The notes under the pieces were generated by a model. It ran no database searches and had not been told where the DNA came from. It saw only the letters and a list, made by a program, of their open reading frames with translations. A stretch of 64,000 bases of DNA from an uncultured Planctomycetaceae bacterium. GTDB lineage: Bacteria; Planctomycetota; Planctomycetia; Planctomycetales; Planctomycetaceae. Location: NCBI GenBank assembly GCA_903858815.1, contig CAIOKE010000133.1:1-64000 (forward strand), given 5' to 3'. The position numbers were made by a program, and so were the translations under genes. Each line of letters opens with the position of its first letter. Position 1 is the first letter of the stretch. Below, in pieces: positions 21,516-27,885 of the stretch.

Positions 21516-23069
21516 TCAGCCCAGCGGACGCACTGGCGATGTACCTGCACTCCGCGTGTCAGGGTATTGTCGGTTCAGTGCCTGCAGAAAGGCCCGCGCA
21601 GCCGCTTCAATGATGTCCGTGCTGACACCCTTGCCCTGATAGTGACGCCCCCCGAAGCCAATCGCGAGGTGCACTTCCCCCAGCGCATCCTGGCCTTCAG
21701 AGACACTGCGTACATCAAACTCTTCCAGCTTCGCCTGCATGCCGGTGATTCGCAGCATTGCACGGAATACAGCGTCAATCGGACCGTCACCTGTGGACGC
21801 ATCGCATACAGCAGACTGATCCTCAAACTGCAGTTCGACAGTCGCCGTCGGAATCGTTCCGGTTCCCGCCGATGTGTGAAAACGAATCAGCTTCCAGCTG
21901 TCCGCCGCGTCGTGCAGACGGTTGTCGATCAGTGCGGTGATATCCGAGTCATAGACTTCTTTTTTCTTGTCAGCCAGCGCGATGAAATCATCAAATGCCT
22001 GCTGCAGCGCCGCATCATCAAGTGAAAAACCAAGCTGAGTCACCCGATCACGAAAAGCATGCCGACCACTGTGCTTTCCAAGAACCAGATTCTGCCCCAC
22101 ATAACCCACATCCTCCGGCCGCATGATCTCGTAGGTGCTGCGCTCCTGCAGCACTCCATGCTGATGAATCCCAGCCTCATGTGCGAACGCATTCTGGCCA
22201 ACAATCGCTTTGTTCCGCTGCACCTTCATACCCGTAATCGAAGACACCAGATGGCTGGTGGGATACAGTTTGCGAGTATTGATTCGTGTGTGCAGCCCGT
22301 AATAGTCAGAACGCGTGCGGAGCGCCATCACGATTTCCTCAAGAGCCGCATTTCCCGCACGCTCACCCAGACCATTGATCGTGCATTCGACCTGCCTTGC
22401 ACCTGCTTCCACGGCCGCCAGACTGTTAGCAACCGCCAGACCAAGATCATCGTGACAGTGAGCACTGATGATGGCCCGATCAATGTTCGGAACATGCTGC
22501 TTCAGATGCGAAATCACACGGTGATAATGGCTGGGAGTCGCATAACCAACAGTATCCGGAATGTTTACGGTCGTGGCCCCCACGGCGATTGTCTTCTCAA
22601 CAACTTCACAAAGAAAATCCAGTTCTGTCCGTACTGCATCCTCCGGAGAAAACTCGATGTCGTCACAGAATTCCTTCGCCTGAGCCACCGAGGTGACAGC
22701 CCGTTCGATGATCTGCTGCTTGTCCATCTTCAGCTTGAATTCACGGTGAATGGCACTGGTCGCCAGAAACACATGAATGCGACGATGCTGTGCCGCTGCC
22801 AGCGCCTGCTTCGCACGTGTGATGTCCTCTTCACGACTGCGAGCCAGCGCACAGATCGTCGTCCGGTCACCACAGGCTGCGGCAATCGCCGACACAGCTT
22901 CAAAATCACCCGGAGATGCAATCGGGAAACCTGCCTCAATAACGTCTACACCCAGTTCCACCAGAGCCCTTGCGACTTCCAGTTTCTCCCGAGTATTCAT
23001 ACTGCAACCCGGCGACTGCTCGCCGTCACGCAGTGTTGTGTCGAAAATCACTATCCGATCACCATTCAT
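21516..23069 (-). CDS. leuA: 2-isopropylmalate synthase
   Basis: First committed enzyme of leucine biosynthesis, condensing acetyl-CoA with 2-oxoisovalerate; 517 residues. The N-terminal [17 protein letters not shown] carries the catalytic Arg and metal-binding Asp, then [14 protein letters not shown], and the metal histidines are in [31 protein letters not shown] and the linker motif [20 protein letters not shown] are canonical. The C-terminal regulatory LeuA dimer domain (about residues 390-510) is present, so leucine feedback inhibition is expected. ATG 23069 has GGAG about 11 bases upstream. Upstream lies a leucine-rich leader peptide and terminator (see separate entries), so the gene is probably also controlled by attenuation. 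leuB, leuC and leuD are not in the window. Confidence 0.95.
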
Positions 23070-23103: not shown

Positions 23104-23136
23104 ATAAAAAAACCCTGAGACCGGCAGGCCTCAGGG
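23104..23136 (-). terminator. leuA leader terminator
   Basis: On the minus strand CCCTGAGGCC-TGCC-GGTCTCAGGG is followed by TTTTTTT (23106-23112). This is a G+C-rich stem with a U run, placed 35 bases after the leader-peptide stop and 35 bases before leuA. It is the classical intrinsic terminator of an attenuator. Confidence 0.85.
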
Positions 23137-23168
23137 TCAATTCCACACGAACACGCAACCCCGAAGCC
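23127..23168 (-). promoter_or_regulatory. leuA antiterminator pairing
   Basis: Segment 2, GGCTTCGGGGTT (minus strand, 23168 to 23157), can pair over all 12 bases with segment 3, GACCCTGAGGCC (23138 to 23127), using three G-U pairs. Segment 3 is the 5' arm of the terminator, so the two structures exclude each other. Segment 2 can alternatively pair with the leader-peptide coding region (GACCCT 23201-23196 with GGGGTT 23162-23157, and GCCTT 23180-23176 with AAGGC 23170-23166). Confidence 0.75.
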
Positions 23169-23170
23169 TT

Positions 23171-23218
23171 TCATGAAGGCAGCAGAAGAAGTCCCAGGGT
23201 CAGCAACAGTTCGGACAT
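23171..23218 (-). CDS. leuL: leuA leader peptide, leucine-rich
   Basis: A 15-codon frame on the minus strand reads MSELLLTLGLLLLPS followed by TGA. Eight of 15 residues are leucine, in two runs (codons 4-6 plus 8, and 10-13), encoded by CTG, TTG and CTT. The stop lies 3 bases before the antiterminator segment. A GGAAA ribosome site is about 13 bases upstream. When leucyl-tRNA is short, a ribosome stalled at codons 10-13 would cover segment 1, let segment 2 pair with 3, and prevent termination. With leucine plentiful the terminator forms. Leu density, spacing and RNA structure make chance unlikely. The gene symbol is by analogy with enteric leuL. Confidence 0.88.
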   Translation of the reverse strand: MSELLLTLGLLLLPS

Positions 23219-23260
23219 TTGACATCACTTTCCGATCGTTGTGCACTTGTCGAAAGCCGA

Positions 23261-23289
23261 AACCTACCGCCGAAAACTGATGTCGTCAA
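23261..23289 (-). promoter_or_regulatory. Candidate sigma-70 promoter of the leu leader and leuA
   Basis: Minus strand: TTGACG (23289 to 23284), 17-base spacer, TAGGTT (23266 to 23261). Transcription would start near 23254, about 35 bases before the leader-peptide ATG. The -35 box is near consensus; the -10 box is weaker. Confidence 0.55.
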
Positions 23290-23548: not shown

Positions 23549-25800
<2,252 letters not shown>

Positions 25801-25889
25801 TCCGCGCAGCACGCATGTGCCATGAGTTCTCTGACTTTCGAATCCTGAACATACGGGCTGTGCCCAGTTAACAATGGAGAGTGAATACC

Positions 25890-26177
25890 ATGAAGATCAA
25901 TCCTCTGGATGACCGTGTAGTTGTTCGACCGCATGAAGCTGAGCAGACGACTGCTGGCGGCATTGTTCTGCCAGACGCCGCTCGGGAAAAGCAGCAGCGT
26001 GGCACTGTGATCGCCGTCGGTCCGGGCCGTCTGCTGGACAGTGGCTCCCGCGCTGCCGTCAGTGTGAAGGTCGGAGATGAGGTCCTGTTTGGCAAGTACG
26101 GTGGGACTGAGATTGAGATTGACGGTGAGGACGTGAAGATTCTGCGTGAGAGCGACATCCTGGCCAAACTGGCCTGA
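25890..26177 (+). CDS. groES: Co-chaperonin GroES
   Basis: 10-kDa lid protein of the GroEL cage, 95 residues. [16 protein letters not shown], the mobile loop with [12 protein letters not shown] (the GroEL-contacting IVL), GTVIAVGPG and [15 protein letters not shown] are all canonical. ATG 25890 is chosen, with GGAG upstream; a GTG three codons earlier (25881) is possible. It lies 89 bases after groEL1 and 91 bases before groEL2, so one GroES may serve both chaperonins. Confidence 0.95.
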
Positions 26178-26268
26178 GATGGGGTGCGTCATCGGGCGCT
26201 GACGGTTTATGGTTTTATTTTCCCGGCGACGATTGTTCGCCAGTGGATTGCTGTAAGGAGCCTTTGAG

Positions 26269-27885
26269 GTGGCAAAGCAACTGTTGTTCGATGATCGCGC
26301 TCGGATCAAACTGCAGCGCGGAGTGGATACGCTCGCCAGCGCTGTGGCGGTCACGATGGGTCCCACCGGACGCAACGTGATTATTGACAAGAGTTTTGGC
26401 AATCCGGTGGTGACCAAGGACGGGGTCACAGTGTCCAAGGAAGTGGAACTCGAGGATCCGTACGAGCACATGGGTGCGAAACTGGTCAACGAAGTTGCCA
26501 GCAAGACCAGTGACAAGGCTGGTGACGGTACAACAACCGCCACCGTGCTGACTCGGGCGATCTACAGCGAAGGTCTTCGAAGTATCACGTTGGGCGCCAA
26601 CCCGACGGTGGTTCGACGTGGTATCGATCTTGCTGTCGAGGCTGCGTTGAAGAGCATTGAATCTCTGGCTCGCCCGGTCGAGTCCAAGGCTCAGATTGCT
26701 CAGGTTGGTGCTATCTCCGCCAACAACGACAAATCGATCGGCAGTTTGATTGCCGACGCGATGCAGCGTGTTGGCCGCGACGGCGTCATCACTGTCGAAG
26801 AGGGCAAAGGCAGCTCGACGACTCTGGAATTCGCTGAAGGCATGCAGTTCGACAAGGGGTACATCAGCCCCTACTTCGTGACGCAGGCCGAGGACATGAA
26901 GTGCGTCCTTGAGGACTGTCTGATTCTGCTGTTCGAAAAGAAGATCAGCAGTCTGCGGGAGTTTGTGCCTCTGCTGGAAAAGGTTGCTCGTACCGGCAAG
27001 CCGTTGCTTGTCGTCGCTGAGGACGTGGACAGTGAGGCTTTGACGGCTTTGGTTGTCAACAAGCTGCGCGGCGTGTTGAAAATCTGTGCAGTGAAGGCAC
27101 CGGGCTTCGGCGACCGTCGCAAGGCAATGCTGGGTGACATGGCCGTTCTGACTGGTGGAACTCTGATCTCTGAAGATCTGGGGATTCGTCTGGAGAACGT
27201 GGAAGTCGGTCACCTTGGGTCTGCTCGCCGCGTCGAAGTAGGCAAGGACGACTGCACGATCATCGAGGGTGCGGGTAAATCTGCCGACATCAAGGTGCGA
27301 GTGCAGCAGATTCGTGATCACATCGAGAAGACGGACAGTGACTATGACCGTGAGAAGTTCCAGGAACGCCTGGCGAAGCTGACGGGTGGTGTTGCAGTGA
27401 TTTCGGTTGGTGCCAGCACTGAAGCCGAGATGAAGCAGACCAAGGCCCGTATGGAGGATGCGTTGCACGCAACTCGCGCTGCCGTTGAAGAGGGCATTCT
27501 GCCCGGTGGTGGTGTGGCACTGCTGCGAGCTATCTCCGCTGTTGAGAAACTGGAACTGAAGGGCGATGAGGCCATCGGGGCTGGAATTGTTGCTCGAGCT
27601 CTTGAGGCACCAGCACGGACGATTGCTGAGAATTGCGGCAAGGACGGAGCGGTGATCGCCGACGAAGTTCGCCAGTTGTCTGGTAATATGGGATTTGATG
27701 CAGCATCGGATGAGTATGTGGATATGCTGAAGGCCGGAATTCTTGATCCAGCCAAGGTTGTTCGCAATGCTCTTTCCAATGCGGCCTCGATCGCCGGCCT
27801 GATGCTCACAACCTCAGTGCTGGTTACGAAGATTGAAGATGCAGACGGTGGCAAGAAGCCTGCTGGTGAGGGTGTCGTTCGTTGA
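26269..27885 (+). CDS. groEL: Chaperonin GroEL, copy 2, without GGM tail
   Basis: Second chaperonin subunit, 538 residues, GTG start preceded by AAGGAG. ATP-site motifs [26 protein letters not shown] and [16 protein letters not shown] are intact, so it should be an active ATPase. It differs clearly from copy 1 in sequence and ends in [12 protein letters not shown], lacking the GGM tail. In bacteria with several GroELs, copies without GGM tails are often specialised; that is inferred here. A strong terminator follows 29 bases after its stop. Confidence 0.95.

Follow-up and report, generated by a model that had tools for sequence, protein, structure and literature searches.

The attenuator of the enteric leu operon is leuL, which we take to be the element represented by the Rfam family Leu_leader. 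The leaders described below resemble it in their Leu-rich leader ORF, in their mutually exclusive antiterminator and terminator, and in their use of the CUA codon (PMC1183508). In Corynebacterium glutamicum, attenuator leaders precede leuA, ilvB, trpE and aroF, and the likeness lies in four consecutive Leu codons before leuA and a Phe-Tyr-Phe run before the DAHP synthase gene aroF (PMC4046766). The actinobacterial LEU element also places an ORF with a run of Leu codons upstream of leuA (PMC1262725), and ribosome-mediated trp attenuators have been predicted in the Chlamydiaceae, which belong to the same PVC superphylum (PMC3937554). Given leu attenuation in enterics, the Corynebacterium leaders and the Chlamydia trp predictions, the mechanism itself is already known. 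For the Planctomycetota, no amino-acid attenuator was found in a premature-terminator study, in a 26-genome RNA search or in text searches (the subscription literature lay mostly outside these), and the sequence-only reading that we followed up had likewise known of no described case in this phylum. This negative does not extend to the possibly relevant 2010 attenuation survey of Lopatovskaya et al., represented here only by its citation in PMC4833913.

The leucine leader upstream of leuA

We analysed a window of 64,000 nucleotides (the whole stretch of DNA under study) from an uncultured Planctomycetaceae bacterium (assembly GCA_903858815.1, contig CAIOKE010000133.1). Its minus strand carries, in this order, a csrA-like gene, a promoter-like pair, a Leu ORF, the 5' half of an antiterminator (arm 2), a terminator and leuA, the parts being:

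23261..23289, minus strand: candidate promoter, TTGACG-17-TAGGTT, 8/12 to consensus
23228..23233, minus strand: possible ribosome-binding site GGAAAG of the leader ORF, inferred from sequence
23171..23218, minus strand: leader peptide ORF ATGTCCGAACTGTTGCTGACCCTGGGACTTCTTCTGCTGCCTTCATGA, encoding MSELLLTLGLLLLPS, stop codon included, 8 Leu in 15 codons
23191..23201, minus strand: arm 1, the protector inside the ORF, GACCCTGGGAC, pairing with arm 2 (by folding)
23157..23168, minus strand: arm 2, the 5' half of the antiterminator, GGCTTCGGGGTT (by pairing with arm 3)
23127..23138, minus strand: arm 3, the 3' half of the antiterminator and 5' half of the terminator, GACCCTGAGGCC (by folding)
23111..23122, minus strand: arm 4, the 3' half of the terminator (by folding)
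23106..23112, minus strand: U-tract of the terminator, T7, of which the first two T close the stem (by sequence)
21516..23069, minus strand: leuA, 2-isopropylmalate synthase, the gene predicted to be regulated

The intrinsic terminator (23138-23106) comprises 12 pairs (23138-23127 with 23122-23111), a 4-nt loop and the T7 tract. Arms 2 and 3 pair at 12 of 12 positions, G-U pairs being allowed (z = -4.7 against shuffled regions), and because arm 3 is common to the antiterminator and the terminator, the two structures are mutually exclusive. Most of these parts had been claimed by the sequence-only reading: the 15-codon minus-strand frame with 8 Leu was present at 23218-23171, the intrinsic terminator plus seven U was found as described (T7 at 23112-23106), and the 12/12 pairing of 23168-23157 with the 5' arm of the terminator was reproduced, its partner being 23138-23127. 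That segment does lie directly after the ORF, but the gap is 2 bases and not the 3 given. The -35/-10 pair assigned to 23289-23261 exists as well, but it is weak and falls under the threshold of our promoter scan; arm 1 (23201-23191) had been missed. The pair is, moreover, missing in G010, the closest relative, and a weak promoter that is not conserved there counts against attenuation. A promoter pair of at least 9/12 lies within 110 nt upstream of 47% of the 53 family leaders, against 2.6% in shuffles.

As regards the neighbouring genes, the csrA-like gene (23548-23339, minus strand) ends about 120 nt upstream of the leader ORF on the same strand. The plus strand carries, at 24100-27885, a groES-like gene (25881-26177) between two groEL-like genes (24100-25800 and 26269-27885), recognized by eye from the translations only.

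For the folding model, the ribosome was given a footprint from 15 nt before to 14 nt after the first base of the A-site codon, and the window leader transcript was terminated just past arm 3. With the A site at codons 4-13, codon 13 being the last Leu, 11-12 antiterminator pairs form in silico, whereas an A site placed on Pro-14, Ser-15 or the stop codon (codons 14-16) yields 0 such pairs and leaves the terminator free; the switch point computed for the window leader lies directly behind the last Leu codon. The unconstrained full-length transcript folds into 1:2 plus 3:4, that is, protector plus terminator (-54.6 kcal/mol, z = -2.6). Without a ribosome, the transcript ending at arm 3 prefers the 2:3 antiterminator, a result that counts against attenuation, since the untranslated state is then not clearly terminating. 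Most family leaders have their stop codon within arm 2 (GGTCTTAGG pairing with CCTGAGACC), so that arm 2 would be masked directly by the terminating ribosome. Alignment A2 also contains (columns 24-46) a local hairpin where the leader ORF ends (e.g. CCTCC-TTGT-GGGAGG in L025); it seems to recur although its sequence changes, and it may serve as protector of arm 2.

We consider it highly probable, in the absence of any transcript or expression data, that the window element attenuates leuA transcription through a ribosome-mediated mechanism. Clustered end-product codons, a terminator before the gene and an exclusive antiterminator are all observed, and the choice between structures by ribosome position is met in silico only. 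A ribosome, which we infer to run close behind the polymerase, would translate the Leu-rich peptide during transcription of the leader by RNA polymerase. With enough Leu-tRNA, it would reach the stop codon and cover arm 2, whereupon arms 3 and 4 would make the terminator and transcription would stop near 23106. With scarce Leu-tRNA, it would stall on a Leu codon and cover arm 1, leaving arm 2 free to pair with arm 3 before arm 4 exists, in which case no terminator would form and leuA would be transcribed. Such a switch should turn leuA on only when leucine runs short; readthrough has not been shown, and translation of the ORF as well as leucine-dependent termination and readthrough are inferred.

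Conservation and spread of the leucine leader

leuA was present in 119/119 relatives searched, and upstream DNA was sampled from about 110 of these 119 and from another 60 genomes in the phylum. An automatic scan required an ORF 7-40 codons long, in which Leu numbered at least 4 and made up at least 20%, and a terminator 5-95 nt past the stop codon; it detected such a Leu ORF plus terminator before leuA in 55 of the 61 family genomes and in 76 of the 106 class genomes, compared with 2/318 dinucleotide shuffles, 0/27 ilvB and 0/24 trpE loci (0/51 for the two genes). Two points here count against attenuation: roughly 30% of the class does not pass the automatic scan, and the hairpins of families f2 and f3 have a broken U-tract. 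Many of the misses, mainly in these two families, show a leader on inspection, with a hairpin whose U-tract is interrupted.

In an alignment of 27 family leaders, pairing in the terminator is 95.6%, with two-sided changes at 5 pairs and in 20 cells, a covariation reached by 0/500 shuffles; pairing in the antiterminator is 90.7%, with two-sided changes at 4 pairs. Over 76 leaders, the duplex between a leader's own arm 2 and arm 3 had a mean of -18.2 kcal/mol versus -14.6 kcal/mol when arms were permuted among genomes (0/5000), a comparison inflated by shared ancestry. Against attenuation, the antiterminator has just 7-8 pairs in several relatives of the same genus. A covariance model of 27 leaders, none from the genus of the window, matched 41/41 family genomes, the best match lying before leuA in nearly all (in G041 and G050 it was weak and lay elsewhere), and its best match in the whole genome of the window was 23206-23104 on the minus strand (E = 6e-13). 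The next full-length match in that genome scored 23 bits; the weaker matches there (e.g. C318, 23 bits), being without a Leu-rich ORF, were dropped as leaders.

Ribosome-mediated attenuation of leuA, as put forward by the sequence-only reading, is thus supported by a leader and stems that are conserved across the class and covary. That reading would have been refuted by orthologous leaders without Leu codons or paired stems, which is not what the comparison returned. The fold that it proposed gave the two exclusive structures, ribosome position selecting the antiterminator or freeing the terminator in silico, and the search that it proposed of leuA upstream regions in other Planctomycetota led to the 76 class genomes above. 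This class-wide spread had escaped it, as had the Ile and aromatic counterparts presented below.

Leaders are present in class families f1 to f9 and also in other classes of the phylum. Family f3 groups with a Limnoglobus MAG (77% leuA identity to G098) and is therefore regarded as Gemmata-like, f5, f7 and f9 group with Pirellulales, and f1 groups with Schlesneria. The f3 leuA hairpin has a poor U-tract (GATTTCGTTT), and several f3 citramalate synthase leaders have normal terminators. Long GC-rich leuA hairpins with interrupted U-tracts (e.g. ATTTCGTTT) were seen in f3 (L097, L101, L104, L085) and f2 (L066, L070), and the Gemmata-like and related families possibly use a different termination signal at their leuA leaders. 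In family f29 (L174, L175, L176, L177; genomes G221, G192, G234, G159), two tandem units of Leu ORF plus hairpin precede leuA, apparently two attenuators in series. Outside the phylum, a Leu-rich ORF plus terminator was seen before leuA in two Verrucomicrobiota records (L199, L255), and a Leu ORF plus terminator in one gammaproteobacterial record (Dyella).

A rival reading is that the leader controls leuA by another RNA route: the hairpins are bound by a protein or a small molecule, or leuA is regulated at translation, as has been put forward for the LEU element of actinobacteria. In its favour, some Leu-rich leuA leaders of actinobacteria do not behave as classical attenuators (PMC1262725), and the f2/f3 leuA hairpin, with its broken U-tract, can stand close to leuA. 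Such a route is improbable in view of the strong intrinsic terminators with U-tracts found in the family, the leuA start lying downstream of them, of a switch predicted in silico by ribosome position alone, and of the absence of any matching Rfam family: with Rfam 15, Leu_leader included, no family reached its gathering score and none of relevance appeared at E<=10, in normal and permissive searches. Nor did the T-box covariance model give a match.

Codon usage in the family's leaders is a further point in favour of attenuation. CTA accounts for 16.5% of family leader Leu codons versus 0.5% in 24 leuA genes (about 30-fold enrichment), and CTT for 26% versus 9%. The CTA codon is absent from the window's own leader, which counts against attenuation there. 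Elf and Ehrenberg single out CUA as the Leu codon best suited to control in E. coli; CUA is also used in the Salmonella leu attenuator, where, as they note, changing it to CUG lowers sensitivity (PMC1183508).

Isoleucine and aromatic leaders

In other genomes, the covariance model gave weaker full-length matches upstream of two further genes: citramalate synthase, where the ORFs are Ile-rich (...AGIIIINTTC), and DAHP synthase, where they are aromatic-rich (...NWWRFYFGFPRRDF). A short ORF plus terminator was found at 21 of 27 family loci of citramalate synthase and at 14 of 30 of DAHP synthase. The best Ile count per 12 residues averaged 4.1 before citramalate synthase versus 0.9 before leuA, and at least 5 Phe/Trp/Tyr in 12 residues occurred in 13/14 DAHP synthase leaders versus 0/54 before leuA. 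The codon-to-pathway match was 531, compared with 340 +/- 17 when gene labels were shuffled (0/5000), with the reservation that related sequences inflate permutation tests; the own-arm fit for citramalate synthase and DAHP synthase pointed in the same direction and was weaker (63/2000 and 34/2000, respectively). The Ile-rich citramalate synthase leaders of the family, with their terminators, are listed as L334-L360 (e.g. L353, L328, L329, L332), and Gemmata-like genomes have Ile/Val-rich ones with canonical terminators (L424, L426, L431). L361-L390 (e.g. L326, L362, L364, L371) are leader ORFs of DAHP synthase in which Phe, Trp and Tyr are abundant together, likewise with terminators; these mixtures possibly make a mixed-aromatic sensor.

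Attenuators were found neither before ilvB (0/27) nor before trpE (0/24) in the family genomes scanned, and hisG yielded one short ORF plus terminator pair in 30 family loci, not His-rich, and no attenuator; not every amino-acid gene is therefore under such control. Neither the citramalate synthase model nor the TIGR01361 DAHP synthase model matched the genome of the window at the cut-offs applied, no leader was found at its two other genes of the DAHP_synth_1 family, and leuA is the sole instance found there by these searches. Overall, three branch-entry enzymes (leuA, citramalate synthase and DAHP synthase) carry leaders with codons of their end product, and we lean towards the view that these entry enzymes form an attenuation regulon in Planctomycetes, Gemmata-like cells among them, with leuA answering to Leu, citramalate synthase to Ile and DAHP synthase to aromatics.

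These matched versions also bear on whether the window hairpin might be a mere terminator of the csrA-like gene and the Leu-rich frame a chance intergenic ORF. Terminators between genes are common, and this one follows a same-strand gene at short distance, but the suggestion is even less probable than another RNA route, given that ORF, antiterminator and terminator recur before leuA (55/61 in the family) and not in shuffles or before ilvB and trpE, that rare Leu codons are enriched in the leaders, and that versions with matched codons precede other genes. That the short ORF encodes a small hydrophobic protein with a function of its own, or a peptide that causes arrest as a nascent chain, and does not act via tRNA supply, is scarcely tenable, for although poly-Leu peptides resemble membrane peptides and Pro-Pro precedes the stop codon in many leaders, the peptide is poorly conserved across the class apart from its Leu content, the last codons vary in peptide yet keep the RNA pairing, and the Ile-rich and aromatic-rich versions follow the pathway, not one peptide property.

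Coupling and comparison with known systems

Ribosome-mediated attenuation requires that the leader be translated while the polymerase is still inside it, and transcription-translation coupling in planctomycetes is disputed. Gottshall et al. (2014), as far as the citation in PMC6212462 conveys it, held that Gemmata obscuriglobus separates transcription and translation in space. Gemmata-like family leaders occur at leuA and, with canonical terminators, at citramalate synthase. Together with the conservation, covariation and evident selection of the attenuator in the class, they provide genomic grounds for coupling. Bacteria for which a separation of the two processes was once suggested thus appear to depend on their being coupled. 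The main value of attenuation as read here is that planctomycete coupling becomes directly testable, with the leader as a simple reporter; as far as we could find, it is also the first predicted regulation of leucine, isoleucine and aromatic synthesis in Planctomycetota.

Compared with the described systems, the predicted Chlamydiaceae attenuators respond to Trp and not Leu, belong to another phylum and are contested for some species. The LEU element is a pseudoknot in which the Leu codons pair with the Shine-Dalgarno sequence of leuA (PMC1262725), whereas the minimum-energy fold of the leader in the window, which does not cover pseudoknots, displays a classical intrinsic terminator, and an antiterminator is also present. 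Relative to enteric leuL, the planctomycete leader has a shorter peptide with a higher share of Leu, comes from another phylum and has no Rfam covariance match, and across the family the stop codon lies mostly inside the antiterminator arm (GGTCTTAGG). In contrast to C. glutamicum, no leaders were found at ilvB, trpE or hisG in the genomes scanned, while the planctomycete leaders stand at leuA, citramalate synthase and DAHP synthase, and those of the aromatic pathway are longer mixtures of Phe, Trp and Tyr.
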